From assembly GCA_001460835.1 (NCBI GenBank), contig CYKH01000493.1:31944-95943 (forward strand): DNA of 64,000 nt, given 5' to 3'. Below the pieces are notes generated by a model, which saw only the letters and a list, made by a program, of their open reading frames with translations, had not been told where the DNA came from and did no database searches. The translations under genes were made by a program, and so were the position numbers. This stretch comes from Bodo saltans (Eukaryota > Euglenozoa > Kinetoplastea > Eubodonida > Bodonidae). Positions 7,090 through 64,000 of this stretch are shown one piece after another; within the stretch, counting starts at the first letter, position 1; the number at the start of each line of letters is the position of its first letter.

Positions 7090-7523
7090 CAGTCAGAGCG
7101 ACCAAATGGACAGATTCTGCTTGTTCACACAAATTCAAATAATATTGATGCGTTGGTTCATCTCCTTGTACGTAACACGCTAGGACAACTGCACGAATAC
7201 TCACACACTCAGATTCTTTCGAAAATGATGGTGACATCCGACAATTGTGAGACATCTGAGTCGGAGCTCAGAGAGGAACTTGTGCGAGCTTATGAGGCAG
7301 CATCCCCAGTCAGAGCGACCAAATGGACAGATTCTGCTTGTTCACACAAATTCAAATAATATTGATGCGTTGGTTCATCTCCTTGTACGTAACACGCTAG
7401 GACAACTGCACGAATACTCACACACTCAGATTCTTTCGAAAATGATGGTGACATCCGACAATTGTGAGACATCTGAGTCGGAGCTCAGAGAGGAACTTGT
7501 GCGAGCTTATGAGGCAGCATCCC
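7090..7523 (+). repeat. Perfect 217-bp tandem duplication (2 copies)
   Basis: 7090-7306 and 7307-7523 are identical by eye. The unit spans the intergenic region and the first codons of the IQ-protein gene. 217 is not a multiple of 3, so the first copy's start codons (7225) run into a different frame and stop at 7359. Only the second copy feeds the full gene. Confidence 0.95.
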
Positions 7524-8661
7524 TCAAGCTCCTGATGGTGACGCTTGGGAACTGGGCGGCGGTGGACATACAGAGGATATACCGTGGCTACGTTGGCCGC
7601 AAACGCGTTAGACTCCGCCGCAAGCGGCTGCTCTTTACAGCGATGCTTCTCCAGCGAGTGACGAGAGGCGGCTTTGCTCGGCGGAACATCAAGTTGCTGA
7701 GGATTGTGTTAGATCAGCCGCAGCGGAAGCGCCTGGTCATGAAGTATCGCTACCTACAGAAGGGCGAAATTGTGATTCCTCGTGTAGCTGCGGCGTTCAT
7801 CTTGCAGCGCTTCGCCAAAAGAATTCCGTCGATTGTCCGTGTGCAGCATTTGCGAGACTTGTACATGTACGTGGTCAGAAGTGCGGTGAAAATTCAAGCA
7901 TTGGCGAAGCGAGCACATTGCCGACGGCTTCACGGAACCACACTTGTTGAGCACAGACGGGCACGCCACGAAAAGCTTCTGGTTGACTACGTTGAGAGCC
8001 AAGTGGCTGTGTGGACTCTGCGTCGTGTGACACGACAACTTGAGCAGCAGAAATTCGAACGAGAAGTTTGCCGCGGCATGCTAACGGGAAGGTCGTTCGC
8101 AGAATCGAGAAAACACGCCGAACGCTCCCACAAGCCAACGAGTGTGCAAATTAACTCTTCTTCTCCCATACATCGCTCGGGCTTCATGTCGCGCCAAGCA
8201 GAGTATGGGGACTTCGTCAACAATCGGCTGATCAATGGTCTCGCAGACAACGACACAACCGACAGTGATGATGACAGCATTGACGAGGAGCTTTTGAGGC
8301 CGCAGAACAAAGCAGTGAAGCTGATATCCTCGAGACGCAGAAAGAAGGCCAACAGTGGCACACCAACGCCAGAAAGCGGTTGGCTGCTACGTGCGTACCC
8401 TGGTTTTTTTTTTGACGAGGAGCTTTTGAGGCCGCAGAACAAAGCAGTGAAGCTAGCGGTTGGCTGCTACGTGCGTACCCTGGCACTGAGCCCGCGCCAG
8501 TTGGACGGTTATCTCGAGCGGCAAGTGCTCTCCGCCTCGCCCGCACACCCTCAGAAGTTGCCAGAAGAATTCTAGTGAGAGATGACGACAGCGACGACAG
8601 CAGCGGTCCCCATAAACGCGCCAATGTCTTTAATCGCCTGGCGCATAACTGGATGCAGTAG
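7442..8661 (+). CDS. IQ-motif protein, frame disturbed by a duplication near the 3' end
   Basis: Likely calmodulin-binding, probably cytoskeletal. IQ-type motifs are visible at VDIQRIYRGYVGRKRVRLRR, LLQRVTRGGFARR, FILQRFAKR and VKIQALAKRAHCRR within the first half. An Asp/Ser-rich linker (DTTDSDDDSIDEE) follows. The start is taken as ATG 7442 in the second copy of the upstream duplication. As printed, the frame stops at 8575. A partial duplication inserts 80 bases (8404-8483, beginning with T10). If these are removed the frame continues to TAG at 8661, with a more convincing ending (DDDSDDSSG, then FNRLAHNWMQ) and a total of 379 residues. The frame arithmetic is observed; that the insertion is not real is inferred. 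Confidence 0.75.
8281..8483 (+). repeat. Partial direct duplication with T10 junction and internal 52-bp deletion
   Basis: Segment 8281-8403 recurs at 8413-8483, but the second copy lacks the 52 bases equivalent to 8323-8374. A run of ten T (8404-8413) joins the copies. The insertion shifts the reading frame of the IQ-protein gene. Confidence 0.9.
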
Positions 8662-8789
8662 AGCAGTGTCAAAAGGAGTTGTTTGTAAAGTTGTACAATA
8701 TGCACTATTCACGCACTTCCCTTCAATCGTAGTGTCATTCATAAAAAAACTGTGTTCTTTGTATTGTACTTTCATCCAACAAGAATACT

Positions 8790-10136
8790 ATGGCGACTGT
8801 GGCAACACCGTCGAACCCCGCCCTTCAAGCGAAGGGCGGCGCCGCGCGGAGGACTTCAGCGAGCCGTGCCGTGGCCGCTGTGCAGGAAACGTTTCCAATC
8901 ATGTTATCGCCCTCCCCGTTACTTCGTGTCGAGAGTCTGCCATCAGGGAAGCCGAGGCCAGTCACTAGGTACCGCTCACTAGATGCTCTCAGTGCGGCGT
9001 ACAAGAGGCCTGATCCCCTCGCTGCTGAGCAGGTTCGTCTTGCGGAGTTCCATACGATCGTGAAAGGGCGCACGACGCTCTTGAGCTTATCTGACGATGC
9101 GTTGAGCATTGTGTATCGCTTTCTTGGCGATACAAGCCGCGACTTCATGCCACTCTCGCGTGTCTGCAAGCGCACGTACCACCTTAGCTTCGGACTTGAG
9201 GCGTCCGTCACCCTCGTACCAACGCTGGTCACCCCTGAGGTCCTATCGAGGCCGGGATCCATGCACTCATTAGCACTCCACCTAGGCCGCTTTACTCGTG
9301 GCCCATATGTAGAAAGCTTCAGCATCATTGACAGCAAAGCAGTGGCGCAGCTCCCTCGCACCATCACTGGCCCTGTGATCTCTAAGATTGGTCTGCAATG
9401 TGTCCTTGCGAACACGCAGCACTTGTTGCGGTTGGACATTCGTGGAGTGGTGCTACGGGATCACTCCCCTGTGACGGATAGGTTTCTAGCGGACCTCAAT
9501 GTGGTGTGTCCCCAGCTAGAGCAACTGCGGGTTGGTGTTGCGCTGGCAAGATGCTGGGAGGTAGGTTGGTGGTCCAAGCTGCCGCAGCTGAAAGAGTTTG
9601 TTGTTGGGTCTCGACGTGAAGACGTGGACTGGATGGACCCTGCACCGCTAGCTCTTCACGATGACGTGCTGGTGATGCTTCGCAGTCCCATCCACCACTG
9701 GAGGGCAGTCAAATTTTGGTGCAACATGGCACCTGCTTCATTCCAGCAGCTGGTCAACCCAACCGTAGCCTTCCCAGAGCTGAAGCACTTAGCTGTCAAC
9801 GCCACAGGGAACACCTCATCTCGACCTCTGGACGATCTGTCCTCTGTTGCTCCGGGAGATGCTGGTGCAGGGGATAAAAAGAAGGCGGACGCGAAGGGCG
9901 CCAAGAAAGGAGCTGTGGACGACACACAAGTGTTGCGCTGCCCCTTTCCAGTTTTGGAATCCTTCACTATTGCAGACATCGCAGAGCGCCCTGACTTCGC
10001 GTCAGAACTGGCAGCGAAGTTGATGGTCACGGCCCCAAACTTGGCGATGTTCAACATCACCAACACACACCGCAATGCTCCGACGAAAATCCCCCCGGCA
10101 ACAGGAAAGCCCAAACGTGGGGTCGCTGCTGCTTAG
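8790..10136 (+). CDS. F-box-like protein with leucine-rich-repeat-type C-terminal region
   Basis: Probable substrate adaptor of an SCF-type ubiquitin ligase. The 448-residue protein has a segment at about 100-140 (LLSLSDDALSIVYRFLGDTS, then FMPLSRVCKRTYHL) that fits an F-box: Leu-rich start, VYRFLG turn, and L-SRVCK-TYHL end. After it, regularly spaced hydrophobic stretches (HLLRLDIRGVVL, CPQLEQLRVGV, LPQLKEFVVG, FPELKHLAVNA, FPVLESFTIADI) resemble irregular leucine-rich repeats. A Lys/Ala/Gly-rich insert (DAGAGDKKKADAKGAKKGA) breaks the repeat region near residue 365. The F-box call is from motif reading only. The cullin at 34939-37385 could be part of the same pathway, but nothing links them directly. 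Confidence 0.7.
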   Translation: MATVATPSNPALQAKGGAARRTSASRAVAAVQETFPIMLSPSPLLRVESLPSGKPRPVTRYRSLDALSAAYKRPDPLAAEQVRLAEFHTIVKGRTTLLSLSDDALSIVYRFLGDTSRDFMPLSRVCKRTYHLSFGLEASVTLVPTLVTPEVLSRPGSMHSLALHLGRFTRGPYVESFSIIDSKAVAQLPRTITGPVISKIGLQCVLANTQHLLRLDIRGVVLRDHSPVTDRFLADLNVVCPQLEQLRVGVALARCWEVGWWSKLPQLKEFVVGSRREDVDWMDPAPLALHDDVLVMLRSPIHHWRAVKFWCNMAPASFQQLVNPTVAFPELKHLAVNATGNTSSRPLDDLSSVAPGDAGAGDKKKADAKGAKKGAVDDTQVLRCPFPVLESFTIADIAERPDFASELAAKLMVTAPNLAMFNITNTHRNAPTKIPPATGKPKRGVAAA

Positions 10137-10224
10137 AGACCATGTACGCATGTATGCATGTAGATGTTCAACCAAGCCTGTTCACATCACGATCGTAATA
10201 CTGCGCTCTTTTCAGTGATCACAG

Positions 10225-10260
10225 TTCATTTTATTTTTTTCCCTGTTTGCGCTTCTGAAG
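10225..10260 (+). promoter_or_regulatory. Pyrimidine tract and trans-splice acceptor for the decarboxylase gene
   Basis: A T/C-rich run (TTTTATTTTTTTCCCTGTTT) is followed by AG at 10259-10260, 23 bases before the ATG at 10283. Confidence 0.65.
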
Positions 10261-10282
10261 TTGAAGCTAAGAAAGAGTCACA

Positions 10283-11554
10283 ATGTCCGACAGCATTTTC
10301 TGCGACACGATCAAGTACAGCGACACCGGTGCCCTTCACGTTGGTACCTTCGATGCGGCCGCTGATATCGTAGCGGCATACCAGACGCCACTTTACGTCT
10401 ACAGTCTGGACAATATTCTTGCAGCACACGCTCGTATCCGTGACGCGTACGCTGCTCATCATAGCAACGTCTCCATCCACTTCTCGCTGAAAGCGAATGC
10501 CAATTTCACGATCGTCAAAGCCCTTGTCCAGGCGGGGTGCGGGTTGGATTGCGTCTCTGCAGGTGAAGTGTTCAAAGCCCTCCTTTGCGGCTGCCCCGCA
10601 GATCACATTGTGTTTGCTGGCGTTGGAAAGTCGCAAGAGGAGCTGGAGTACGCCGTGAGCCGCGGTATTGGGTGGTTCAATGTCGAGAATGAGCTGGAGC
10701 TTTCGTACTTGAACGATTTGGCTGCTCAGCACACTGATACCAAAGTGAAAATTGCGCTGCGACTGAACCCCGACGTCCAAGCGAACACTCACCCCAGCAT
10801 TGCCACCGGCCACGGCGGAGCAAAATTCGGGCTGCCAATCGACGTCGTTCAACGCATTCTTGGTGCCACGGAGAAGTACCCTCACCTCCACTTTGAAGGC
10901 CTCCACGTGCACATTGGAAGCCAGCTAGGTGACACCTCTCCCACACAACGTGCAGTGGCGGTGGCTCTCGACATTGTGCGGCCGTTTCCCTTCGTGAAGT
11001 GCCTTAACATTGGTGGGGGAATGCCCGTGTCCTATGACAACACCGTCAAGCCGGATCCGAATTCCTTTGCAGCAGCCGTCTGCCCCCTGCTGCAGAACTA
11101 CCACGTGATGTTGGAGCCTGGTCGTTCCATTGTTGCCAGCTCAGGTATTCTTGTCTGCAAGGTGCTCTATCGGAAAGACCAAGCAGGCCAAAAGATTATT
11201 GTAGTGGACGCGTCTATGACAGACATCATGAGGCCGGCGTTATATTCCGCGTATCATGCTGTCGTCCCGCTGCAACGTGCACTCCCTGACGAGGCAACTG
11301 AGGTGTTCAGCGTTGTGGGACCTGTGTGCGAGACAACCGACGTATTGGCTAAAAACGTCACCCTGCCTGAGAGGTGCGGACACCCTGGTCAGCTCCTGGC
11401 GCTCATGACGACAGGTGCGTACGGTTTCGTGATGGCGAATAACTACAACGCTCGTCCCCTAGTGCCCCAGGTTGTTGTGCACAATGGTCAACTGCGCCTG
11501 TCGACGAAGAGGCAAACCTTCGAAGACCTCATTCGTGATGAGCTCGACCAGTAG
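10283..11554 (+). CDS. lysA: Diaminopimelate decarboxylase (LysA type)
   Basis: PLP enzyme that decarboxylates meso-diaminopimelate to L-lysine. The 423-residue fold-type III protein shows the PLP lysine in FSLKANANF (K70), GLDCVSAGE, RLNPDVQANTHPSIATG with GGAKFGL, GLHVHIGSQL, IGGGMPVSY, EPGRSIVASSG, VDASMTDIMRPALY, the active-site Cys in GPVCETTD (C349) and YGFVMANNYNARP. The THPSIATG...KFG, RPALY and NYNARP signatures distinguish LysA from ornithine decarboxylase. Eukaryotes outside plants and some protists usually lack LysA, so bacterial ancestry is likely (inference). A bacterivore could use it on diaminopimelate from prey peptidoglycan. No other lysine-pathway gene is present here, and there is no obvious targeting peptide. 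Confidence 0.93.
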   Translation: MSDSIFCDTIKYSDTGALHVGTFDAAADIVAAYQTPLYVYSLDNILAAHARIRDAYAAHHSNVSIHFSLKANANFTIVKALVQAGCGLDCVSAGEVFKALLCGCPADHIVFAGVGKSQEELEYAVSRGIGWFNVENELELSYLNDLAAQHTDTKVKIALRLNPDVQANTHPSIATGHGGAKFGLPIDVVQRILGATEKYPHLHFEGLHVHIGSQLGDTSPTQRAVAVALDIVRPFPFVKCLNIGGGMPVSYDNTVKPDPNSFAAAVCPLLQNYHVMLEPGRSIVASSGILVCKVLYRKDQAGQKIIVVDASMTDIMRPALYSAYHAVVPLQRALPDEATEVFSVVGPVCETTDVLAKNVTLPERCGHPGQLLALMTTGAYGFVMANNYNARPLVPQVVVHNGQLRLSTKRQTFEDLIRDELDQ

Positions 11555-11766
11555 TGGGCCTCACTATCTCGTTGCCGCTTCGCTCCTATCCCGTGTGTGA
11601 TCCTTGACATTCGTTTCAGATGCTATTGTACTTGTTGATGTTACATTCTGTTACTCGCGTTTTATTTGACACTTAGCACACAACACAGGGTTGAGGTGAG
11701 ACGCTTAGCGTCAGTGACCGTCATCGATGCACCCCCTTTCCACGTCTTGAACTTACGTCATCGTCA

Positions 11767-12771
11767 ATGAACTGTTTGCTGTGCGCTGAGTGCCACGGTG
11801 GCGGAACTTCAGAGCACCACCTCTGCGTGACGGTACCTTGCGGGCATTTCCTACACGAGCATTGCTTCGCTTACTTGAAGAAGCTATCTAAATTACTACA
11901 CAGCGAACAACAGATACGACCTCACGAACCCCTACATTCCAGCGCACCACACTGCCCAGAATGTAACAAAGTGGTGCTTTACAATGTGAAAATATTTGTG
12001 GACACTCCCGCGACTGCGGTTGATTTGCAAAGCCGAGTGGCGCACCTGCAACGCAAGCTGCTGATGCGGATGGCCGAGACGTCTCACAACAAGAGAGAAG
12101 TCATCAGTGCCCAAGCCAGCTGTGCGTCGAGGTACCAGGAGATCAACGGACTACGGGGGTCTCTTGAGACCCTACAGGCGACGTTAGCGAGCCTTGATCA
12201 GATGCAGCCACAGGGACCAAAACCAACTGCATTGCATGATGAGAATGCAGCCATTGCAAAGATGACGCAACGCGAGCTCGCGTGGTTGGTGAGAGACTTG
12301 CACATGAGAATGACCTCGGAGAAAACAAAGCTTGACGCTGCGCAAAAGCTCCTTACAACGAAGAAGAACCGATATGCCTCCTTAAAGTCGCAATACGATG
12401 CTCAACGTGTTACCACTGCAAAGGCACGAAGCGCTCGCCGAGCTGCAACGATCCATCTTGATCCGGTGGTGGAACGGCCTGTCGCCGCGCCAGCAGCTGC
12501 TGCTTCCCGTGAGGCAGTGGTCGCACCAATAGACGTCGTCGATGTCGACGCAGAGGACTCCGATGACGACAGTGATGTAGAAGTCGTAGCCGTAGTGCCA
12601 CGTGCGAGGGTGCTGCAGGCATCTAACGACGCATTCTGCCCCATGCGTCCAGTTCCGGGAAGAGTCCTGCCTAGCTACGACGTGGGCAGTGGGAGATCCC
12701 TCATGGACTTCCCTCGTGCTGCCGACGCTACGTTCCAGGGGCTGATCACTCAATACCAACGACGTACATGA
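11767..12771 (+). CDS. RING-finger protein with coiled coil and candidate SUMO-interaction motif
   Basis: Probable E3 ubiquitin ligase, 334 residues. The N-terminus holds a RING-type zinc site: CLLCAEC at 3-9, VPCGHFLHEHCF at 24-35 and CPECNK near 64. The long spacing before the last pair suggests a loop insertion. A predicted helical/coiled-coil region follows (about 85-225, e.g. RVAHLQRKLLMRMAE, then DLHMRMTSEKTKLDAAQKLL). Near 258-276 an acidic patch (DAEDSDDDSD) runs straight into VEVVAVV, a hydrophobic core typical of SUMO-interaction motifs. RING plus coiled coil recalls TRAIP; RING plus SIM recalls SUMO-targeted ligases. The RING is clear; the SIM and subtype are inference. Confidence 0.8.
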   Translation: MNCLLCAECHGGGTSEHHLCVTVPCGHFLHEHCFAYLKKLSKLLHSEQQIRPHEPLHSSAPHCPECNKVVLYNVKIFVDTPATAVDLQSRVAHLQRKLLMRMAETSHNKREVISAQASCASRYQEINGLRGSLETLQATLASLDQMQPQGPKPTALHDENAAIAKMTQRELAWLVRDLHMRMTSEKTKLDAAQKLLTTKKNRYASLKSQYDAQRVTTAKARSARRAATIHLDPVVERPVAAPAAAASREAVVAPIDVVDVDAEDSDDDSDVEVVAVVPRARVLQASNDAFCPMRPVPGRVLPSYDVGSGRSLMDFPRAADATFQGLITQYQRRT

Positions 12772-12930
12772 TCTCAGTGTGCGTGTGCTTTAGTAGTCCT
12801 GTGTTCACTATGCTTGATGATATTCTAGCTCTCCACCAGGAGTCGAATTCACAAATCATTTTGTTGCTCTCTTTGTCAACACATCAACCCTCTCTACACT
12901 GTAGCTCGATTATTAGAATTTAGTGGTGAT

Positions 12931-15900
12931 ATGAACTTTACGCTTCCCACTCTCATCGCTGAGAGGAGGGACCGCAGTCGATTCGTTGAGGCGGTCAAAG
13001 CTTCGCCATCTGCTCCTCAGCCTGCAGCACCACTAGGAAACTCAGAGGAAACGCAAGACGCTGCTGCAGATGAGCATACAAAGACAAGCGACAACACATA
13101 CTGCGAGTTGGCAGAGCAGCTAAGGAGGTTGGAGTGTGAAGAGGCTGTGTATTTCACTCAGAAGTTGTTGATTCGATGCGTAGCGGTAGAGGAAGACGCC
13201 AGAGAGGCCATTGTCAATGAATGGGACGCTGTGATCCAGCCGGAGCTGATGGACGCGTACGTTGCTCTGTGCGCCCGCAGCAGACGACATGTGACCCAAA
13301 TCGAAACGACTGTTCGCGAGAAGATTGGTGCGTCTGCCCATCATCTGCTGAGACTTCTGCACGACCAGCGGCATATAGAACACGAGGAACAAAAGGAGCG
13401 CAGTACCTTAGCATTCACGGCAATGGCTGCGATGGTAGCAGACCACATTGAATGCCCTTGGAGGTCTATCGCGCCTCGCCCACCGTCAGAAGGAGTGACG
13501 AAGTCAGATGAGGTTCATGCGCAAACTAACGTGGATGCCGATGGAACGTGGCCCATCGTGGAGCCGACAGATCCACTCCTAGCTGTGCGGCTTCTCTCAC
13601 CAGAAATGTTAGAGTTGATGCCCAAAGATGCGGTTCTCCAGCGTTCAAAATGTGCTCATGATGTCGCACGTGATGCGACCCGCAACATGATTCATGACAC
13701 GAATACGCGTGCGTACATTGTCGCGTCGCACTACACCAGAGAGCGTGCGGAGCTGTCCTACGACGACGAGGTGAAGGAGGAGAATTTTACGACGCCCTGC
13801 AGCCCCAGCTGCCTTCCAGGCATTGTGCTCCCGTGGTCGTTTGTAGAGGATGAGCGCAATCAGCGGTTATGGACGAGTCAGGAGTGGGAGAGAGAAACTG
13901 CTGTCCTAGATGGACTCCTTCAACTATTTCAGAAGGTCTGTCCTAGATGGACTCCTTCAACTATTTCAGAAGGTCCTGCACACGGAGCACACCGCCCGTT
14001 CAGCACTTCGGTCGTTGTACTTTTGGGCCGATGAACGGCGTTTGCGGGCCACGTTGCTGCTGCAGCGTGCGTGGAGGTACTTTGCTCTTCAATCCGCTGG
14101 TACAAGGCGGCGGGAAGCGATCCGGAAGTGCCTCCCATCGGCACTCAACCAACGCCTCAAGGATGAGACGGTGTCGGTATTGAAGGGCCACATGGAAGGC
14201 GTCGATGACGCGACCCTGCGTGATGTGTGGGCCGAGGACTATGCCACCGGGGAGATGGGTTTGTACTATCCGTACCGCCTGCAGGTGCTTGAGGTGACAG
14301 CGGAGCGACATCACCGTCGACTGTACCGACAGTTCGTGCAATCCCTTGCGCACGCTGTGCATGCCTTCGTTCGTCATTCACACACAGATGTCGCTGCAGA
14401 CTTACGTCGAATGTTCTTTTACGATGAAGTCGGAGGCCGCGACGAGATCTTACGGGAGCAGCATCGCAACTTCAAGGCAATCTGTGCCCTAGAAGAGAAC
14501 TTATCTCGAGTTCTCCGTGGAGTTCCAGAGGACGCCCCTCGATCACTTCCTCGCGTCCTGGACCAGATTGAAGCCCCACCAGTTGGATGGGAGGCGATTT
14601 ATGAAGATGATCGACGTGCAGAGTGGCGACGCGTAGCACTGTGCGCCAACGGGTGGCGCCATTTCCGTTTGGAGCAGCACAAGCTGGTGTTTGATATGGA
14701 GGAGAACGACGCCTACATTGCACTAGTGTCGCAACGAGGCGGGTCGGCTGGCACATCCGCACGCCCTCCTTCCGTTTGGAGCAGCACAAGCTGGTGTTTG
14801 ATATGGAGGAGAACGACGCCTACATTGCACTAGTGTCGCAACGAGGCGGGTCGGCTGGCACATCCGCACGCCCTCCCTCTAGCGAGAGAATTCCTAGTGC
14901 AGGATACCGCCGCGTGCCAAGCGCCGGGTACTCGCAGGGGCGAGTTGTGAGCAGCGGTGGCGCTGAGCGCATTGGAAGTGCTGCGTATCGCCGCTTAGGG
15001 AGCGCGTCAATCAACGGACCGCGACGCGGCAGTAGTGCCGACACCAGCAGAGTGCGAATTCCGCCACCAACGAACGCACAGCGCGGCGTGCCTCGATTCT
15101 GGGAGGGGTATCAAAAAGTGATTTACGCAAAACAGCGCATTGCTCTCCTCGAAGCCCTGCAACGTGAAAGCATCGAAGAGCGCTACGAGCGGCATGTACA
15201 CTACGCCTCGATTGCAATGACGTTGTTGGTCCACCACCCCAACCAATGGCGTGCAGACGTGCCTCGCACGTTTGCATCTGAAGTAAACGCCTTGGTGCAG
15301 AGGGAGGTATCCGATCGCGCGCTTCTGGTGGAGGATGTGGACACTGCTGCACACCATTTCTTGGAGACTGCCACATCACTTGCCACGAGTGCATACTTGA
15401 GCCGCATTGTACCGCCCAGAGAGGCCGTGGCAGATGAACAAGAGGCACGACGCTCCCTTGAGTCGCAAGAGGCGACTCATCGAAATGAAGTGACCGCAAT
15501 CATCAAATCATTCGAGCGCACTTTCGCCGCAGCAACAGAGCATCTTCGGAAGATTGGCATCATTCCGCGTCCTGCCTCGTCAAGGGCCCACGCGAGACTC
15601 ACGTCTGCTCTCCAACGGGACGACTTGGAGCACCACCGAGTCAACTTTGCCACCGCTGGGCGCGTTGCGACGGTCATTCAGCGGTGGTGGCGCCACGTCT
15701 CTAGCAAACGGTTGCACGTGATTGACGCAGCGTTGGTTGTGATAGACCNNNNNNNNNNNNNNNNNNNNNNNNNNNNNNNNNNNNNNNNNNNNNNNNNNNN
15801 NNNNNNNNNNNNNNNNNNNNNNNNNNNNNNNNNNNNNNNNNNNNNNNNNNNNNNNNNNNNNNNNNNNNNNNNNNNNNNNNNNNNNNNNNNNNNNNNNNNN

Positions 15901-17082: not shown

Positions 17083-17299
17083 TGTAGTGTGTGTGCTGTT
17101 CTGTGCTCAGGTGTATATGTTCATTACCCCAATATGTGTTGACCGCTTCACTTTTTTGAATGAATGGCTTGATCTGATGCACACCGAATCACACGGGGCT
17201 TCACAGCGAAGCGATACAATGACTTGTTGTCCCATTTGACACAATTCACACGTGAAGATTTCTATAACACACAAATCCATATTACTTGAGTCGCCCTTC

Positions 17300-53408: not shown

Positions 53409-53516
53409 CACGGAATCTGTTTCTGCGCTCTATCTTTTGTTGATACTTTTTCGTTTAAAGCAGTCGCTTCTTTTTTTTCTATGTACGTGACAGTGCTTTG
53501 TATTTCGCAATGATTA

Positions 53517-53556: not shown

Positions 53557-53572
53557 CAAATTCACTCCTGCA

Positions 53573-54319: not shown

Positions 54320-54633
54320 ACTGGGCATTTGGTTTGTTTGGGATTTTCTTCGTTGTGCACTTTTTTTTTGGTTACTGCAGAGATTTCGTTGTACTGTGCT
54401 CTGCTCCGTCGCTCCCCCTCCTCTCCTTTTGTGTCTTTCGTTGATGGATCGTGTGCTCCCCCCAAAATTTCTTTTCACTCTCTCAGTGCAGTATGTCTGA
54501 GCTGTTGTTGCCAACTACCTCCAAAACATGCCGAACAATACTTGCCTGCCTTGGTAGTCGAGTGCACTGCTGTCTCACTCATATTTTCTTATTAATGTTT
54601 GCGCATTTGTCAAAGTGATCATTTAGGACACAC
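54320..54633 (+). other. Intergenic region with T/C-rich tracts
   Basis: No gene. T runs (54360-54369) and a clear pyrimidine stretch (54404-54439, CGTCGCTCCCCCTCCTCTCC and following). A short Cys/Phe/Leu-rich frame here is composition only. Confidence 0.65.
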
Positions 54634-55362
54634 ATGCTGCGCTGTAGTAGGAAGGCGCTTGCCTCTTCTCCGGGCATTGGTATCGCCCCGGAGACAACCC
54701 CTGTGAAGTACACCCCGTCGATGCTGAAGTTGAGCCATTCGAAATGGTACGATGGTAAGAGTATTCCGTACCGCGCCACCTTCCGTGAGAAGAGCTGGCT
54801 AGATGTGTCGAGAAGAGGGGCGTTCAATAAGGGACATCGAGTTCTGCTCACCAACACGTACAGCCCCGCTGCGTTGCAAGAGGCGACCAAAATGATTCCC
54901 TCAGGTTTTGAGGTGCGGGATGTCCCTCGGCCACCGCAGCGTATTCGAGCGCAATCGGAAGGCATCGTAGGCCGATGGTTTACAAACTACTGGACGCTGC
55001 ATTCGATCAAGTACCAGTGCCAATTAGCAAGGGTGCCATGGGAGTTTGGGGAGCGCCAAAAGCCCACGACCAATTATGACGAGCCTTTTGTGTACACGGA
55101 CTACGAAGAATCGAAAGCTCTCCGAGACTTCCGCTCTCGCTGGATCAACGTCAACCGCAGCCTCGTTGGGATGTCCAAGAGGATGAAGGAGTCTGAAGAG
55201 GAGGCCAGGTTTTCGAAGTACCGGCGTGTGCAGGAAACATTCTGGTCGAATCGCAAAGTACTCATCAATCGAGTGAAGTCGATGCACAACCAGGGAACTC
55301 TTGATACGGCGCGTGATTTGCCCATCAAGACATTCAACATCAAGGCATTTTTGGCGGAATGA
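54634..55362 (+). CDS. Unknown basic protein, probable mitochondrial, 242 aa
   Basis: Not recognised. The start (MLRCSRKALASSPGIGIAPE) fits a mitochondrial presequence. The body is rich in Arg, Lys, Trp and Tyr (SKWYDGKSIPYRATFREKSW, GRWFTNYWTLHSIKYQCQLA). The C-terminal half is helical and basic (RDFRSRWINVNRSLVGMSKR, EEARFSKYRRVQETFWSNRK). Composition and the mitochondrial neighbours on both sides suggest a mitoribosomal or other mitochondrial RNA-binding protein (inference). Confidence 0.7.
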   Translation: MLRCSRKALASSPGIGIAPETTPVKYTPSMLKLSHSKWYDGKSIPYRATFREKSWLDVSRRGAFNKGHRVLLTNTYSPAALQEATKMIPSGFEVRDVPRPPQRIRAQSEGIVGRWFTNYWTLHSIKYQCQLARVPWEFGERQKPTTNYDEPFVYTDYEESKALRDFRSRWINVNRSLVGMSKRMKESEEEARFSKYRRVQETFWSNRKVLINRVKSMHNQGTLDTARDLPIKTFNIKAFLAE

Positions 55363-55449
55363 CGCAGCCGGCCTCTTTTTCCGCACAACAACAGTACCGT
55401 TTCCTTTTTTGATGATTTGACTCCATCTTTTTGCAGTATTGTCCTGTTT

Positions 55450-55477
55450 CCCCCCTTACGTTTCTTCATCATCGTAG
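55450..55477 (+). promoter_or_regulatory. Pyrimidine tract and trans-splice acceptor for SHMT
   Basis: CCCCCCTTACGTTTCTTCAT then CATCGTAG, AG at 55476-55477, 22 bases before ATG 55499. Confidence 0.65.
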
Positions 55478-55498
55478 TGTAACAATATATTGACAAGC

Positions 55499-56914
55499 AT
55501 GCTTCGTCGTAGCCTCGCTCGTTTCATCCCTGCGGTGCTTCCCGGCAACAAGGCACTCGTGGACCATGATCCCGAGATGCACGCACTGCTCCAGAAGGAG
55601 ATGCGCCGTCAGATTTCAGGTCTTGAGTTGATTGCATCTGAAAACTTCACGAGCCGCTCTGTCATCGAGTGCCTCGGCTCCGTCGCAACGAACAAGTACG
55701 CAGAGGGCCTCCCTGGTGCCCGCTACTACGGCGGCACCGAAGTGGTGGATGTGATTGAGAATTTATGCCGCTCTCGTGCACTCTCCGCCTTTCGTCTCGA
55801 CGAGTCTCAGTGGGGCGTCAACGTGCAGCCGTACTCCGGCTCTCCCGCGAACTTCGAGGCATACAGCGCAGTGCTCCAGCCTCATGACCGCCTTATGGGT
55901 CTTGACCTCCCTGCTGGAGGCCATCTGACGCACGGTTTCTACACCGCTCAGCGCCGCGTAAGTGGCAGCTCCATTTATTTCGAGTCTATGCCCTACGGTC
56001 TCACCCCTGAGGGCATTATTGACTTAGACTCCCTGGAGAAGGCTGCCCTCGTCTTCAAGCCAAAGCTCATCATTGCTGGCGGGTCTGCGTATCCACGTGA
56101 CTGGGACTACAAGCGCTACCGCGACATCTGCGACAAAGTCGGCGCTTTCTTCTTGGTGGATATGTCCCACTTCAGCGGCCTCGTCGCTGCGGAAGAACAC
56201 AACAACCCTTTTGAGTTCGCTGACATTGTCACCACGACTACACACAAGTCCCTTCGTGGCCCCCGAAGCGGCATGATCTTCTACAAGAAGCAAGTCACCC
56301 GCGGGAAGGAGGTCTTCAACCTCGAGGAGCGTGTCAACAACGCCGTGTTCCCCATGTTGCAAGGCGGCCCACACATGCACCAAATAGCGGCTGTTGCAAC
56401 GCAGCTTAAGGAGGTGCAAACACCAGAGTACAAGCAGTACATTCAGCAAGTGAAAGCGAATGCCAAGGCCTTCGCCGCTGCCCTCACCAAGCGTGGCCAC
56501 GCTCTTGCAAGCGGAGGTACGGACAATCACCTTCTCCTGTGGGACCTGCGTCCCCACGGCATCACCGGCTCAAAGGTAGAGAAGCTGCTTGGTGTTTGCC
56601 ACATCACCGCCAATAAGAACAGCATCGTCGGTGACAAGAGCGCCGTGACCCCCGGCGGTGTTCGCCTGGGCACGCCGGCCCTCACCACCAGAGGATTCAA
56701 TGAGAAGAACTTCGAAGAGGTAGCTGATTTCTTGGCCCGCGCCGTGGATATCGGGAAGGGTGTGCAGAAGGCTGTGCCCTCCACGAAATTGGTTGACTTC
56801 GTGAAGGCATGCGAATCCAACGCTGACTTGCTGGCGCTGCACAAGGAGGTTGAAGATTACGCGCTTCGTTTCCCATTCCCCGGCTTCGAGGATGCATTCC
56901 CGTTGAGGAAGTAA
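55499..56914 (+). CDS. SHMT: Serine hydroxymethyltransferase, probably mitochondrial
   Basis: PLP enzyme that converts serine and tetrahydrofolate to glycine and 5,10-methylene-tetrahydrofolate. The 471-residue protein has the family motifs in order: [58 protein letters not shown], the PLP lysine in [16 protein letters not shown] (K250), [28 protein letters not shown] and [14 protein letters not shown]. The start [18 protein letters not shown] is a good mitochondrial presequence. ATG 55499 follows a pyrimidine tract and AG. Confidence 0.97.
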
Positions 56915-57294
56915 ACCTTCGATGATGGCAAGCTGCATGTCTCCCTCTCCTCAAAATTGAAGCACCACATCCTCACCTCCAGACGAACAATCACTTGTCT
57001 CTGGAGTCTGGTCAAGCCTCAAAACATTATCTTCAAAAAATACAAACAGCATTGCAGCGCAACGTCGAAGAACAGAAGAGTATTTTAGGTCGAGGATGCT
57101 CGACAGCAATGACGCGATGCCCAAATAAGCACGAAGGCGATATTTCAGTGAAATGACTCTTGTAATTTTCTTTATGAACTGTGCCTTGCACGCATCCGGA
57201 CCGCACCTGCCATGGTCCCCAACTCAATGACTAGTTTGCTCTTTCGTAACTCAAATCCAACAAAATAATCAACAACTAAAGTATTGCGAACACA
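56915..57294 (+). other. Intergenic region after SHMT
   Basis: No gene. A/C-rich UTR sequence with an A run near 57035; weak T-rich patches near 57162-57176 and 57237-57249. A minus-strand frame across it lacks any coding character. Confidence 0.65.
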
Positions 57295-57705
57295 ATGTTT
57301 AGAAACGGTCTTTATCACATCCTGATTGTCGTCGTCGTAGCCGCCACTACAATAGTCGCGCAACATGATCCCCTGCAGTCGGGCTCCCATGAAGCGCATC
57401 GTAGAGGCGACGAGTCGATGCTAGAGCAAATGCTTACGCAACATCGAAGTGCTGCCGAGGAAGAAGCCACAGCGCTACGGGTATCCATACGACGCGCGAT
57501 TCATGAGCAGCACATCCAAGCTCACCTAGCAGTCGACCCCGACCTGCCGACGGAGGCAACCGATGAGGTCCGTCAACGATTTCTAACATCACGGAAGAAG
57601 TTACTTGAGAGTGCCGCAAAGCCGACGACTGGCATGAGACTCGTGTTCCTTGTAGGCATTGCAGTGTTGCCTATGGTCGGATTCGGCGTGTGGATGAAGT
57701 TGTAG
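57295..57705 (+). CDS. Small type I membrane protein, 136 aa, unknown
   Basis: Not recognised. A signal peptide (MFRNGLYHILIVVVVAATTIVAQ, cleavage likely after VAQ) is followed by an 85-residue hydrophilic helical region (EQMLTQHRSAAEEEATALRV, SIRRAIHEQHIQAHLAV, EVRQRFLTSRKKLLES). A C-terminal transmembrane helix (LVFLVGIAVLPMVGFGVWMK) ends two residues before the stop. This suggests a single-pass secretory-pathway protein with a lumenal or extracellular helix and almost no cytosolic tail. It could partner the large membrane protein encoded next, but this is only proximity. Confidence 0.7.
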   Translation: MFRNGLYHILIVVVVAATTIVAQHDPLQSGSHEAHRRGDESMLEQMLTQHRSAAEEEATALRVSIRRAIHEQHIQAHLAVDPDLPTEATDEVRQRFLTSRKKLLESAAKPTTGMRLVFLVGIAVLPMVGFGVWMKL

Positions 57706-58042
57706 GGGTACAGTAGGAGGCCCTAAGAATACGATCGAAACAATTGCTTTTGTTGTTGTGATGTGTGTGTGGTCGTGATGATCACAACTCAATTTACAAT
57801 GCTACAATGCCGCTCATCATAATATTTGACAAATCGTTCTCATTTGTGTTTTTTTCCCCCTGCCGCTTTGCCAAGCAGAGCAGATTGCTCTTTTAGATAG
57901 GAGAGTCAAAAAACCTGTTTTTGTGTGAGCATTTTAGCACTTCAGAGCAAAACAACGACAGTAACAGAAGATCAGCACTTGAAATTATAGTGTTGAATCG
58001 TCGCGCTCATAACGAATATTGTTGAGGTGACTAGATTGTCTA
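57706..58042 (+). other. Intergenic region before the RND-family gene
   Basis: No gene. It contains a T/C tract (57848-57876, GTTTTTTTCCCCCTGCCGCT) followed by AG at 57884, a likely trans-splice acceptor with a 5' UTR of about 150 bases. Confidence 0.65.
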
Positions 58043-61000
58043 ATGGAGCATAATCCCTTCGGTCGTAAGCAAGTGCGCGCAACGGAAGAGACAGTGGGAG
58101 TCGTTGGCAAGCAGTTCCCCGCCACGCAGCAGTCGGACTTCTACGCTCGGTGCCCGACGCTTGTCCTCGTGCTCAGCGTCGTCATGCCAGTCGTCTTCAT
58201 GTTCATTGGCATCGGCTCTGACATCGCCATCGACGTGTCGTTGGATGGGTTCGTGGCGGATCCCCACGAGTCGACAACGAGTGCGAATATTATCAACGGC
58301 CTTACGTCCGCATGGCCAGTCGTCTTCATGTTCATTGGCATCGGCTCTGACATCGCCATCGACGTGTCGTTGGATGGGTTCGTTGCGGATCCCCACGAGT
58401 CGACAACGAGTGCGAATATTATCAACGGCCTTACGTCCGCATGGACCGGTCTGATCTCCGGCACCACAACGCTTGAGTCATCGGTGGATGGCTCAAAAAC
58501 AAAATCCAAAGTTGAATTCCGACAGGAGATTCGATTTGATATCAGTTTGCCGGAGTTCAGCAACTGGTACTACGGGCAGTACCTCCCTGGCACGTCCAAT
58601 CCCGAAAGTTTTACAGCTGTCAGTAATTTATTGCGAAAGGAGAACATGCAGTATATCCGTGCCATTGAGAAAATCATCTTGACCCAGGACCCGTACACTA
58701 GCATGTGTTTTACGAACAATTTGAAATACGGGGGAGGTCGCGTCACGTCGTATCCAACCTGCGCCCCACTAACGTCGCTCACTCAAAATTTCTTCCCCGG
58801 CACCTACTCAATCATTCCCAGCGGCGTTGACTTCCCAATGGACGGGCAGGGCCTGACATATCAAGTTCCGTACCAGAACGTTGTGGCACGTGTGCTATCC
58901 AATCCAAACTACCGCTGGTTTGTGGATAAGACAATGACGAACCTGAACCCGTACACGCGTTCACTGCGCACGCAGTTGACATTTGCCACGCCTTTCACGG
59001 TTGGAACTTCCACCACAACACTGCGCACCGTCCGAAGTTTCATCAGTAACATCAATCAAGCGCTTTCCTACCTCATCGGATCCCACGCGTTTATTTACTT
59101 CTCCTACGGCGGTGACCAGGTGCAGGACGCTCTGGTTGATAGCGCTCTCCAGCAGGAATATTACAAGCTTGGCGTCATGGTTCTTATTGTCGCAGTGGTT
59201 GCATGGTTCCATACAAGGACGTTTATTTTGACCGTATGCATGGTATGCCAACTGCTGCTGACGTACCTTGCCAGCTGGGGCTTGTACATCACTGTGTATG
59301 ACTCACGAACCAACAACGTTGCGTCAGCAAGTCAAGACGACACCAGCCAAAAAGCACTTCCGCTGCTCAGTAGTGTCTCACTTTTCTTGATCATCTCTTT
59401 CTGCCTACACGGGACGCTCACGTTCTACGATACGTTTGTTCACAGCGGAATCATGGCCACCACTGGGCGGCGAAACAATCTTTCTGTGTCTCAGCGTATT
59501 GCGTTCGCAATGCGTCGTGCAAGTTTCGGCATTACGATCGCAAACTTGATCGCGATTGTCGTGTTTGGCATCAATGCGGCCTCGGCGTTCAAAGCAGTGA
59601 GGGACTTCTCGGTGATGATGATATTCAGCCTGCTCTTTAATTTGTACTTTGCATGGACGACAACGCCTGCCTACGTGTTGTGGCACCATTACTACTTCTC
59701 CAGAAAGCGACGTATTGCGCAGAAGCAGCGAGAGGTCGTCACCGAGCATGCTGACGATGTTCGTCGTCACTCTGCGTTGAATGAAGTCCTGCAACAAATG
59801 CAAATGTACCTACGTCCCGATGAAGAATCATTTATGTCCATGGCAACAAAGGAGCAAATCTTAAACGAGGCGGAGGAGGCGAAATGGAAGATCTTCGTGA
59901 GGGAGGGTGCCGGCGCCATCATGACCGACACGAAACGTGAGTTGGACGAAGTGATTGCGTCCATCCGAAAGAATCGCGACAATGCTGCCCGTCGTCATGC
60001 AGGCGATGGAGGCGAAAGTAATTTTATGGCCTTAGCCGACGGTGCCGAAGAATTTAAATTTGAGATGTTCGTTGATGTCAATGCGCTCCAGGACACAACA
60101 TTCGATCAATTCTTTAGCGAGCGCCTTGTCCCAGCAAGCCGCGTACTGCACATTCCTCTCGACCACACCTTGCGCACCGCTGAGAACGTCGTGATGACTG
60201 CTGAGGCCGCGGCGATTGCGCAGCCCAACAAAGCTCCTGTCCAACAGCATCAACCACAAACAACCGCGAATAACAACCGCCCCCGCAACATGTCAAGCTC
60301 GGATATTGATGTTGGAAACACCACAACAACGTCTGAGCCGATCATCGACGCGATCCCAACGGAGATGGGGCCTGATGCCATGTCTGCGTGGTGGTCTCGC
60401 TGGGAGGCGGCCAGCAAAAAGCTCGCACTCTCAGGCATTTCAGACGGGAGCACGCATCCCCTCCAGCCTCTGCTTGCCTACAATGTTTGTGTTGCCCACG
60501 ACCCGTATTGGGTAGCCAGCGAATCCAGCGAACTGATGGCTCGGCGAGGTCATTATTTAGGGTTCCGCAGCGCTCGTGAGGGCAACGAGGCAGGCGGTGA
60601 CACCCTCAACTTGCACGCAGTGCAACAGCTGGGCGCGGAGCATGCGGCTCTCGGTCGTATTGGCGACGAAGGCGGTGAGGGATTCTCGAACGTCAATCAG
60701 CTTGCCGCGAAAGAAGAACAGAGGCCACCCTCTCAGCACAGCCCCACAGGAAACGCACGGCCTCCCACCGCACAAAGCAGACGATCGCAACGAGCTGGTC
60801 AACAAGCAAAGAAGACTGAGGAGTACAAAAACTTTTTCGGGAAAATGAAACACCGATGGAAGGTACGAAACTCTGAAGAACGACAATACTGCTGCGGTAT
60901 GCTAGGATCGCGCATCAATGAAACCCGCGAAGAGCGCGATGCTCGCATCCTTGCGCGTGCCACGAAAAAAGAGGGCTATGGTCGAGTCGAGCGTATTCTC

Positions 61001-64000
61001 ACGCAGTTTGTCGCCCCATGGATTGATGCCTGGAAGTACCCACTGCTGCTGATGTTTGCCGCCCTGTTTATCGTGTCGATTGTGCTGTCCACCTACGTCA
61101 AGCCTGCTGGTGTCCCAAAGACATTACTCGTCGACGTGAGCGCAGCAACGACCTACGCCAACATGGGGAATCTCTACGCACAGTCAGGCACCTGCGACTT
61201 CTGTGGCCTCTACTACCGCCCCTACAACACGCCTGCGATGGCCACGGAGAGAGAGCTGGTGATCTGCCCAAGCCAAGCGCCTAACTTCTACACGCAACAA
61301 ATGAATGTCATTATGGACAAGTGCGATGTATGCGGTGGCTCGAATGCGTGTTTCTTGTGCAACGGCGATGTGCCCAGAGGAAGTAATTTCTACATCACCA
61401 CTACGTGTGGCACTTGTGCGCTCACCAACGCCCAATGTACGACGTGTCTCTCCACCGACTCCTGCACCTACTGCACGCTGAGGAATGGCACCGCTACGGC
61501 TGGGTACGGTGGTAGCGGCTGCGCCACACAATGCACGAGCTGCGGCGGACATGGTAGTTGCAATGCATTCACTGGCTTGTGTGACTGCGATCGAAGCAGT
61601 AGCGCAGCGTACGATGGCGCAACATGCAGTGGCTGCGCGGACGGCTTTACTGGCGCAGGGTGTGAGCAGGAGTGCGATGCCTCAGGTCTTAGCAGCCCCT
61701 GCAATTGCAATATCACATCTGGCCGCTGTACAACATGCCCGGCAGGGAAACGAGGCTACAACTGCGTGACAGACTCTGTGTACTGTCTGCACGGCACAAT
61801 GAACGCCGCGGCAACGGGCTGCTGCACCTACTGCACGCTGAGGAATGGCACCGCTACGGCTGGGTACGGTGGTAGCGGCTGCGCCACACAATGCACGAGC
61901 TGCGGCGGACATGGTAGTTGCAATGCATTCACTGGCTTGTGTGACTGCGATCGAAGCAGTAGCGCAGCGTACGATGGCGCAACATGCAGTGGCTGCGCGG
62001 ACGGCTTTACTGGCGCAGGGTGTGAGCAGGAGTGCGATGCCTCAGGTCTTAGCAGCCCCTGCAATTGCAATATCACATCTGGCCGCTGTACAACATGCCC
62101 GGCAGGGAAACGAGGCTACAACTGCGTGACAGACTCTGTGTACTGTCTGCACGGCACAATGAACGCCGCGGCAACGGGCTGTGATTGTGACCCGGGGTGG
62201 CAGGATGGAGGCTCCTGCACGCTGCACGAATCCTGCACGTTCCGTGGCGTGCTCTACACCACCGCTGAGGCACCAATGAATGGGTGCGGCTGCATTGGGA
62301 ATTGGGTAGGCAAGAGCTGCACCTCGTGTGCTTGCCTAAACGGGGGCTCATGCAATGCCAACGGGACATGCTCGTGTGTAGGCTCGTTCTACGGAGATCA
62401 GTGTCAGTTATGCCCAACGACGTGCAGCAGGTACGGCACCTGCCCAACTCCTTTGGACCCCTCTTACATGAACCTTCGTCAGTGCCTTGGGCAGTGCACC
62501 TTTGCACAACAAGACAGCGGAACAATCTGCGCGCCTTGCAGTTCAATTTCGTGGCCCAGCACACCGACCTGTAGTGCGTACACAACGGTGTTATCGTGCA
62601 ATACAGATCTTTCGTGCTTGTGGTATGTGGGGAACTGCGTGAGCGTGGTCAACCCCCTTTCCATCAATGTCACCGCGCTGACAACGTGCAACTGCAAAGG
62701 AGCGTGGAGCGGTAGTGCGTGCAGCGTGTGCAACGGGCCCAACGGCTCAACGTGCTTGGCCGATGGCACGATCAAGGCATGTGATGGGTTCACCTACAGC
62801 AGCAGCGCCGGGGCTCCGGCCGTCGATAAGTGCGGCGTGTGTGGAGGCTCAGGGAACTGCATCGGTTGTGATGGGATCCCTAACAGCGGCAAGGTGTACG
62901 ATAGCTGTGGTGTGTGCGGTGGTAACAACGGCTGCCTTGGCACCACCTCTGCATCCCCCGTGTCTGTGACCTTCTTAGTGGATGTGCATTCCTACAGCTC
63001 CTTGCAGACCAATCAATACCAGTCGCTTGCCGCGTATTGCAAGAAGTTGCAGGATATGGCGGCACTGGGAATCATCGTAGACACAGTCTCGTGCGTGATA
63101 TCAGACTACATCACGTGGCAAACGCAAGGAGCGGGCTACACTTCCACCAACACAACGCAGCTGGACATTCACCGACTGTACACGTACGCCTATGGCGCTG
63201 GCAGAATAGGAGATTTGATATTCAGCGATACGAATGGTAATAGCTCCACACTTCAATTGTTGTACGTCGTCAACACGGTGAACTTGCCCACCCTGACCGT
63301 AGCGCCGAATGCTCGCATATTCGACTTGTATGAATCGATGCTGGCCATTGCGGGCCAGCTTGAAGGCCAGCTAAGAGACTCGGGGTTGAGTGCCGCTTCT
63401 GTCCGTCAAACTTCGACGAGCTGGGCAAATGCCGTTGCCGCAGAGGTCTCACTCGCGACGTTGAAGTTCACCGCTGGCATCGGTATCGCCATGGCATTCT
63501 GCATCATGGGTAGCTTCTTCGCCAACTTCAGGCTTTCCCTGTTCGCCACGATGAGCGTCGTGTTCGTCTTCTGCGGTACGTTAGCGGTTGCTTACACGCA
63601 AGGCTGGGACATTGACGCCGTCACGCAAATCTGCGTGGCCGGTGTCATTGCGGTTGCCGTGGAGCACCTTGTGCATATTGTCGACGGATACCAAGATTTC
63701 CTCCAGAGCACACAGACGCATATGTTTGCCCTCTCCACCACATGCATGCACGCCTTTCGTGGATCCCTTACTCGCACAGGCGTGTCGATTATTAGTTCCA
63801 CCATTGCCACCGTGGCAGTGGCGCTGTTGTTTGTGGTCAGTGCCATTCAGCCCTTCCGTCGCGCCGCCCAGGTGATGATCACTGTGCATATCTTCACTCT
63901 TATCACCGCTGTGCTATTTGGAGCTGCACTTTGTGCCTTTGGGCCAACGGTGCTCATCCGCCATTGGGCAGCGACTACAGTGTTGTGTTGCAGCACGCGC
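58043..64000 (+). CDS. Patched/Dispatched-type (RND, sterol-sensing) membrane protein with EGF-like second loop; 3' end beyond window
   Basis: At least 1986 residues, open to the window edge. The order fits a 12-TM RND protein. TM1 (LVLVLSVVMPVVFMFIGIG) is near 40, and a first lumenal loop runs to about 370. TM2-6 include YKLGVMVLIVAVVAWFHTRT and SLFLIISFCLHGTLTFYDTF with an SSD-like layout. A 370-residue hydrophilic, presumably cytosolic, linker precedes TM7 (YPLLLMFAALFIVSIVLSTY, near 1000). The second lumenal loop (about 1050-1640) is Cys-rich with EGF/laminin-type units (CTSCGGHGSCNAFTGLCDC, CACLNGGSCNANGTCSC). TM8-12 follow, with GVIAVAVEHLVHIVDGYQDF. Two in-frame duplications (129 and 360 bp) lie inside. 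Function could be lipid transport or release of a lipid-linked ligand; substrate unknown. Confidence 0.85.
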   Translation, partial: MEHNPFGRKQVRATEETVGVVGKQFPATQQSDFYARCPTLVLVLSVVMPVVFMFIGIGSDIAIDVSLDGFVADPHESTTSANIINGLTSAWPVVFMFIGIGSDIAIDVSLDGFVADPHESTTSANIINGLTSAWTGLISGTTTLESSVDGSKTKSKVEFRQEIRFDISLPEFSNWYYGQYLPGTSNPESFTAVSNLLRKENMQYIRAIEKIILTQDPYTSMCFTNNLKYGGGRVTSYPTCAPLTSLTQNFFPGTYSIIPSGVDFPMDGQGLTYQVPYQNVVARVLSNPNYRWFVDKTMTNLNPYTRSLRTQLTFATPFTVGTSTTTLRTVRSFISNINQALSYLIGSHAFIYFSYGGDQVQDALVDSALQQEYYKLGVMVLIVAVVAWFHTRTFILTVCMVCQLLLTYLASWGLYITVYDSRTNNVASASQDDTSQKALPLLSSVSLFLIISFCLHGTLTFYDTFVHSGIMATTGRRNNLSVSQRIAFAMRRASFGITIANLIAIVVFGINAASAFKAVRDFSVMMIFSLLFNLYFAWTTTPAYVLWHHYYFSRKRRIAQKQREVVTEHADDVRRHSALNEVLQQMQMYLRPDEESFMSMATKEQILNEAEEAKWKIFVREGAGAIMTDTKRELDEVIASIRKNRDNAARRHAGDGGESNFMALADGAEEFKFEMFVDVNALQDTTFDQFFSERLVPASRVLHIPLDHTLRTAENVVMTAEAAAIAQPNKAPVQQHQPQTTANNNRPRNMSSSDIDVGNTTTTSEPIIDAIPTEMGPDAMSAWWSRWEAASKKLALSGISDGSTHPLQPLLAYNVCVAHDPYWVASESSELMARRGHYLGFRSAREGNEAGGDTLNLHAVQQLGAEHAALGRIGDEGGEGFSNVNQLAAKEEQRPPSQHSPTGNARPPTAQSRRSQRAGQQAKKTEEYKNFFGKMKHRWKVRNSEERQYCCGMLGSRINETREERDARILARATKKEGYGRVERILTQFVAPWIDAWKYPLLLMFAALFIVSIVLSTYVKPAGVPKTLLVDVSAATTYANMGNLYAQSGTCDFCGLYYRPYNTPAMATERELVICPSQAPNFYTQQMNVIMDKCDVCGGSNACFLCNGDVPRGSNFYITTTCGTCALTNAQCTTCLSTDSCTYCTLRNGTATAGYGGSGCATQCTSCGGHGSCNAFTGLCDCDRSSSAAYDGATCSGCADGFTGAGCEQECDASGLSSPCNCNITSGRCTTCPAGKRGYNCVTDSVYCLHGTMNAAATGCCTYCTLRNGTATAGYGGSGCATQCTSCGGHGSCNAFTGLCDCDRSSSAAYDGATCSGCADGFTGAGCEQECDASGLSSPCNCNITSGRCTTCPAGKRGYNCVTDSVYCLHGTMNAAATGCDCDPGWQDGGSCTLHESCTFRGVLYTTAEAPMNGCGCIGNWVGKSCTSCACLNGGSCNANGTCSCVGSFYGDQCQLCPTTCSRYGTCPTPLDPSYMNLRQCLGQCTFAQQDSGTICAPCSSISWPSTPTCSAYTTVLSCNTDLSCLWYVGNCVSVVNPLSINVTALTTCNCKGAWSGSACSVCNGPNGSTCLADGTIKACDGFTYSSSAGAPAVDKCGVCGGSGNCIGCDGIPNSGKVYDSCGVCGGNNGCLGTTSASPVSVTFLVDVHSYSSLQTNQYQSLAAYCKKLQDMAALGIIVDTVSCVISDYITWQTQGAGYTSTNTTQLDIHRLYTYAYGAGRIGDLIFSDTNGNSSTLQLLYVVNTVNLPTLTVAPNARIFDLYESMLAIAGQLEGQLRDSGLSAASVRQTSTSWANAVAAEVSLATLKFTAGIGIAMAFCIMGSFFANFRLSLFATMSVVFVFCGTLAVAYTQGWDIDAVTQICVAGVIAVAVEHLVHIVDGYQDFLQSTQTHMFALSTTCMHAFRGSLTRTGVSIISSTIATVAVALLFVVSAIQPFRRAAQVMITVHIFTLITAVLFGAALCAFGPTVLIRHWAATTVLCCSTR
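58187..58444 (+). repeat. 129-bp in-frame tandem duplication covering part of TM1
   Basis: 58187-58315 and 58316-58444 differ at one silent base (GTG/GTT). Each encodes 43 residues beginning PVVFMFIGIGSDIAIDV, so the hydrophobic segment and the start of loop 1 occur twice. Confidence 0.95.
61462..62181 (+). repeat. Perfect 360-bp in-frame tandem duplication of EGF-like units
   Basis: 61462-61821 and 61822-62181 appear identical. Each encodes 120 Cys-rich residues (CTYCTLRNGTATAGYGGSGC through NAAATGC). Being in frame and within a modular region, this could be a real domain expansion. Confidence 0.95.

Follow-up and report, generated by a model that had tools for sequence, protein, structure and literature searches.

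Does a genome in which reading frames are repeatedly interrupted by short direct duplications truly generate them, or do they record how the sequence was put together? We examined this question in a 64,000-nucleotide stretch of DNA, hereafter the window, for which 14 such duplications had been listed in the original prediction. All 14 were found at the periods claimed for them (Table 1), and the tandem copies were 95 to 100% identical. In 5 rounds of order-2 Markov surrogates, generated for both the window and sampled loci, direct repeats within 2 kb were never longer than 15 bases, and a 50-kb stretch of E. coli K-12 contained zero direct repeats of 24 bases or more; the duplications therefore exceed chance. 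Of the 18 sampled loci that were readable, 12 contained such repeats.

Table 1. Duplications, gaps, and associated features of the window.
Positions	Strand	Period (bases)	Description
7090–7523	+	217	Exact tandem duplication that includes the start codon and 5' end; gene reads open from copy 2 onward
8280–8483	+	132/80	Composite duplication; 52 bases of piece 1 missing from piece 2; tip of 8 bases at 8404–8411; frame kept
13901–13975	+	37	Exact tandem duplication, frame-breaking
14663–14876	+	107	Exact tandem duplication, frame-breaking
15749–16048	.		300-N gap
23056–23769	+	355	Exact tandem duplication, frame-breaking; in gene with weak YqgE/AlgH match
29830–30057	+	119/120	Non-coding duplication; first exact run 40 bases; T-rich tip separates the copies
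32843–33220	+	189	Tandem duplication, in frame; 8 differences, 8/8 synonymous
34409–34708	.		300-N gap
34723–35375	+	613	40-base exact stray copy at this offset; copy 1 begins 14 bases past a 300-N gap
43991–44180	+	95	Tandem duplication, frame-breaking; scored differences 4/4 synonymous
47177–47652	+	238	Exact tandem duplication within eIF3e, frame-breaking
47713–48003	+	145	Exact tandem duplication within eIF3e, frame-breaking
50174–50550	+	187	Tandem duplication, frame-breaking; of 9 differences, 5 synonymous and 4 nonsynonymous; only copy 1 preceded by a start codon
51591–51890	.		300-N gap; spliced-leader tail directly downstream
51893–51908	+		3' tail of euglenozoan spliced leader, then 39 bases, then ATG (51948) of cactin-like ORF
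58186–58444	+	129	Tandem duplication, in frame; a single difference; final exact run of 60 bases
61462–62181	+	360	Exact tandem duplication, in frame, inside long ORF 58031–63997
62518–64000	+		Contig end (C246); overlaps, in the same direction, the beginning of contig C237; 8-base tip

Eight of the duplications had been predicted to break reading frames that are repaired when one copy is dropped. By frame arithmetic, done without joining the sequence, this held for seven (periods of 37, 107, 355, 95, 238, 145, and 187 bases) but not for the 217-base duplication. There, a stop at 7084 to 7086, just upstream of the unit, ends the frame, and in-frame ATGs lie within the unit, so the gene is left unbroken; copy 2 alone gives an open frame to 8572. 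The 132/80 duplication keeps the frame because 132 is a multiple of 3, and the 360-base duplication may be a true protein repeat. The gene names proposed earlier fared unevenly. That of eIF3e was confirmed by a PCI domain and by a best structure match to 7ase_E (E = 6 × 10−51), with no match at E 0.001 for the first and middle pieces of the gene against solved structures; only one eIF3e locus was found, and it is broken twice. The LYR-YqgE name drew a weak YqgE match (22.8 bits; cut-off, 27), and a Pfam search at E 0.01 returned nothing of the kind for the names of the IQ proteins and the glycosyltransferase.

An excess of differences at third codon positions is expected of alleles and not of frame-broken duplicates. 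We counted differences in every row with a difference that the detector returned for the window and 21 sampled loci, dropping none (19 diverged rows), and it is this count on which we rely: codon position 3 held 51 of 79 differences, compared to a third-position fraction of 0.334 under a null with the same choice of frame, and 46 differences were synonymous. When 15 diverged rows were chosen by hand and their ends extended further, position 3 held 66 of 90 differences (63 synonymous). The pattern was missing from 8 of the 19 rows (both in L015; L018 at 1631; L019 at 760 and 833; L024; L025; and the window at 29872). Had the copies arisen by true tandem duplication, those that break the frame would be free of coding constraint; instead, frame-breaking rows alone placed 23 of 39 differences at position 3. 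The differences between copies thus look allelic. Seven duplications have identical copies and so no differences to compare (217, 37, 107, 355, 238, 145, and 360 bases), and for these the artefact reading is inferred from frame-breaking periods and from the company that they keep.

The lengths of exact runs and the end of the contig point the same way. Among 63 exact repeat pairs, 9 were exactly 40 bases long, compared to a mean of 0.9 for each other length from 30 to 50 (Poisson P = 5 × 10−7), and 3 were exactly 60 bases long (P = 0.001). In 20 further small loci, which yielded 20 pairs, none was exactly 40 bases and one was exactly 60. Runs of 40 and 60 bases suggest assembler k values near 40 to 41 and 60 to 61. 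At the contig end, the overlap between C246 and C237 had been left unmerged. It contains 67 differences in 1,475 aligned bases, distributed 10/10/47 over the three codon positions (49/67 synonymous), and its last exact run is 40 bases.

Given the allele-like coding pattern, the pile-up of runs at 40 and 60 bases, the unmerged contig ends, and the commonness of such repeats in the assembly, we consider it very probable that the short duplications are assembly seams that the organism itself does not carry; the gene breaks seen here should therefore not be accepted as real. The first three of these observations also uphold the earlier suggestion of an artefact in which two haplotypes were concatenated. 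Neighboring pieces, in part derived from two alleles or strains with a few per cent divergence, would have overlapped at their ends and been abutted with the overlap kept, leaving it present twice. Where the copies are identical, the same abutting may have occurred, or gap closure may have overrun the next piece. Gene models drawn from this assembly would carry false splits or lengthening at seams every few kilobases, the sole eIF3e locus found included.

The diverged copies could instead be chimeras of close paralogues from gene arrays, still an assembly artefact but one that we regard as improbable. Paralogues under selection also differ mostly at synonymous sites, and related stretches do occur elsewhere (window positions 3869 to 4421 have a related copy in C487 at 96 to 98%). 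However, searches of the assembly with window positions 1 to 20000, 44500 to 64000, and 47000 to 48200 found no second, seam-free copy; what they returned was the overlap at the contig end and some short pieces of related sequence. For the first two of these intervals, no second copy of the seam genes was detected. The contig-end overlap is, moreover, collinear and in the same direction. A genome that truly and frequently makes short tandem duplications, with many genes broken in at least one allele, is far less plausible still. Recent tandem duplications would leave adjacent and often identical copies like these, and the repeats are present on many contigs, but codon positions in the frame-breaking copies and the exact run lengths both disfavor it, the only eIF3e locus found would be broken twice, and the same overlap occurs between two contigs. 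Finally, although removing one period repairs the frame for seven of the duplications, the birth of new introns by tandem duplication of AGGT sites, with splicing restoring the frame, is extremely unlikely, since AGGT is not enriched (10 of 26 units, compared to 8.3 expected) and introns would already be spent if the contigs are RNA.

False duplications of related kinds have been described. Kelley and Salzberg 2010 (PMC2864568) used mate pairs to test duplicated overlapping contigs in DNA assemblies of vertebrates. In our data, highly identical overlaps at the ends of pieces were found both as tandem copies and between C246 and C237, but they are mostly tens to hundreds of bases long, no gap separates the copies, and the material is probably RNA-derived. 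Ko et al. 2022 (PMC9516828) distinguish heterotype from homotype false duplications, which do and do not show haplotype differences, by read depth and read k-mers; we likewise see two classes, diverged and identical copies. Difference-free lengths of more than 200 bases beside others at approximately 5% divergence point to seams of two kinds or to heterozygosity that is patchy.

What, then, was assembled? The set comprises 934 contigs (29.3 Mb), one of them at least 151,790 bases long, and appears to be sense-only. Every one of the 134 kinase matches counted (a lower bound) lay on the + strand, + ORFs dominated every readable locus (27 contigs), and no strand switch was seen in the loci read. 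Contigs without any gap were also sense-oriented (e.g., C237 and L018). Spliced-leader tails numbered 54 forward and 1 reverse (0 and 0 in the control); 18 lay no more than 4 bases from a contig start, and contexts were inspected for 14. One tail lies in the window, at 51893, and marks a mature mRNA 5' end. A search for the complete spliced leader, holding its 5' half fixed, returned no match. tRNAs numbered at least 5 in the 29.3 Mb (63 of 461 candidates scored), all on contig C291 in a mixed-strand cluster that resembles ordinary genomic sequence; within the window, ARAGORN detected zero tRNAs and Rfam gave no match at gathering thresholds. A 1,001-base piece searched against plasmids and a 1,434-base piece searched against E. 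coli genomes were both without a match.

These data resemble stranded RNA from a protist that uses polycistronic transcription and trans-splicing, not an ordinary DNA assembly. We strongly infer that a euglenozoan with these two traits, probably a kinetoplastid, supplied the strand-specific RNA behind the pieces; because of this origin, the contigs would be chains of sense-strand RNA, both precursor and mature. It is likely that the entire set is RNA, representing a large part of a euglenozoan nuclear sense strand rebuilt from stranded sequencing of polycistronic precursors, with contigs as stretches of transcription units up to 150 kb or more. An ordinary DNA assembly, either scaffolded and oriented with the help of stranded transcripts or combined with contigs of transcript origin, is a rather unlikely source, and the duplications would still be seams under it. 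The 300-N joins and the mixed-strand cluster on C291 speak for such an assembly, whereas the sense orientation of gap-free contigs, the uniform strand of the kinase matches, and the absence of strand switches argue against it.

If an RNA origin is true, the record belongs under transcript assembly and offers a useful map of polycistronic transcription units; its restriction to one strand, scarcity of tRNAs, and lack of strand switches would otherwise be mistaken for biology. If the whole set is RNA, it would give a direct view of precursor length and continuity. A comparable case is given by Tikhonenkov et al. 2021 (PMC7859406), where an assembled polycistronic transcript of the kinetoplastid Apiculatamorpha spiralis (29,462 bases) spans a whole one-directional contig. 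That transcript, however, is a single example within a DNA project, compared to 934 sense-only-looking contigs in the present set.

All fourteen direct duplications of the original prediction, named here by their periods, were present at their predicted positions. They are not chance products, since no direct repeat longer than 15 bases arose within 2 kb in order-2 Markov surrogates made from these loci, and no repeat in 50 kb of E. coli comparison sequence reached 24 bases. Eight had been said to break reading frames that are repaired when one copy is dropped. By frame arithmetic alone, without joining the sequence, seven of these repairs held (37, 107, 355, 95, 238, 145, and 187). The exception was the 217 duplication, whose gene is not broken: the frame is closed by a stop just upstream of the unit, which itself contains in-frame ATGs (see the table of coordinates), so that copy 2 alone carries an open frame to 8572. 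The 40-base stray copy with period 613, whose first copy begins 14 bases after a gap, does not explain the frame change between the neighboring ORFs. The 129 and 360 duplications lie in frame within a long ORF in which cysteine-rich repeats were seen by eye.

We scored differences between copies in all 19 repeat rows (one row per detected repeat) with at least one difference, from the window and 21 loci taken by place (contig C1 and 20 others; 18 readable), reading codon positions in the open frame running through both copies. The 79 differences fell 14, 14, and 51 at codon positions 1, 2, and 3 (46 synonymous), against null fractions of 0.324, 0.342, and 0.334 for random substitutions with the same frame choice. 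Frame-breaking periods alone gave 10, 6, and 23 (21 of 39 synonymous). This third-position bias, even in frame-breaking rows, suggests allele-like copies, since a frame-destroying duplicate could change anywhere and the alleles of a working gene could not. An earlier tally of 15 selected rows, their ends extended, placed 66 of 90 differences at position 3 (63 synonymous), and 35 of 54 in its frame-breaking rows. The pattern was missing in 8 of the 19 rows (two in L015, L018 1631, L019 760 and 833, L024, L025, and window 29872), some of which fall outside convincing ORFs.

The window runs to the end of its contig, C246, whose last 1483 bases overlap the start of contig C237 in the same direction, with 67 differences in 1475 aligned bases (10, 10, and 47 by codon position; 49 of 67 synonymous), a final exact run of 40 bases, and an 8-base tip. 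In several duplications, too, the copies are set apart by a short tip (6 to 12 bases long in sampled loci L020, L022, and L030; 8 bases in the 132/80 composite). The tandem duplications resemble this overlap after end-to-end placement of its two pieces, as at an assembly seam. Assemblers built on de Bruijn graphs yield pieces that stop at a set distance beyond a variant. Exact repeat pairs of 24 bases or longer numbered 63 (23 in the window, 40 in sampled loci), of which nine were exactly 40 bases long and three exactly 60, compared to means per other length of 0.9 (30 to 50) and 0.2 (50 to 70); several of these runs form one margin of a diverged duplication and adjoin its first or last difference. 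Counting against this signature, 20 further small loci gave no pair of 20 at 40 bases and one at 60.

Seven duplications (217, 37, 107, 355, 238, 145, and 360) offered no differences to read. These identical copies are likely artefacts too, because only one of the seven periods is divisible by three, the single eIF3e locus found is broken by two of these duplications, and they sit among better-supported seams. Gap closure overrunning the next piece may be their source. The 360 duplication, in frame within a long ORF, could be a true protein repeat. False duplications both with and without haplotype differences have been described (Ko et al. 2022, PMC9516828), as has an overlapping-contig type (Kelley and Salzberg 2010, PMC2864568). 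The last eIF3e piece had its best structure match in 7ase_E, which we take to be a Trypanosoma cruzi complex. Elsewhere in the window, a decarboxylase ORF best matched structures of diaminopimelate decarboxylases, presumably mostly bacterial, and is perhaps a lysine-synthesis gene.

Exact pairs of at least 24 bases occurred in 12 of the 18 readable loci (40 pairs in 153,158 bases). Searches with window positions 1-20000, 44500-64000, and 47000-48200 found short related pieces and the contig-end overlap with C237, and no seam-free second copy of those stretches. One segment has a related copy in L002, with 61 extra bases, 56 of them repeated exactly, a seam-like duplication on another contig.

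Coordinates of individual features
Feature	Sequence	Position	Strand	Remarks
Segment related to L002	window	3869-4421		96-98 per cent
Related copy	L002 (C487)	1501-2114
Stop upstream of 217 unit	window	7084-7086
Decarboxylase ORF	window	10271-11551
Gap	window	51591-51890		two bases before tail
Spliced-leader tail	window	51893-51908	+	39 bases before ATG
ATG, cactin-like ORF	window	51948
Long ORF	window	58031-63997		1989 codons, to contig end
Spliced-leader tail	G000:C652	4378-4393	-	single minus-strand case
A-rich junction	L038 (C18)	1456-1500
tRNA cluster	G000:C291	16366-17117	mixed	three minus, two plus

The contigs seem sense-only. Plus-strand ORFs outweighed minus-strand ORFs in every readable locus listed (27 contigs), and at least 134 protein kinase matches were found, 134 of 134 on the plus strand; the same search tool does give minus matches for tRNAs. 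The 16-base tail of the euglenozoan spliced leader occurred 54 times forward and once reverse (reversed control, 0), the reverse case reflecting a chimeric contig or chance. Leaders with the same ending appear in a tabulation for Euglenozoa in PMC3795323. Eighteen of the 54 tails began at contig positions 1 to 4, and 14 contexts read comprised six contig starts, four positions after N runs (two of 300 N and two of greater length, the latter perhaps withheld sequence), and four direct joins to other sequence. At the start of contig C232 the tail is followed, after 8 bases, by the ATG of an ORF, presumably ribosomal protein eL43. In L038, nine A and six other bases directly precede the tail, as if a tailed mRNA end were joined to the next mRNA. 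With tails where contigs start and behind gaps, the contigs look built from stranded RNA. They are most simply read as strand-specific RNA from a protist with polycistronic transcription and trans-splicing; PMC7859406 reports a 29-kb assembled kinetoplastid transcript spanning a contig. At least five tRNAs were found in the 29.3-Mb assembly (63 of 461 candidates scored), all five on C291 in one mixed-strand cluster that looks like ordinary genomic sequence.
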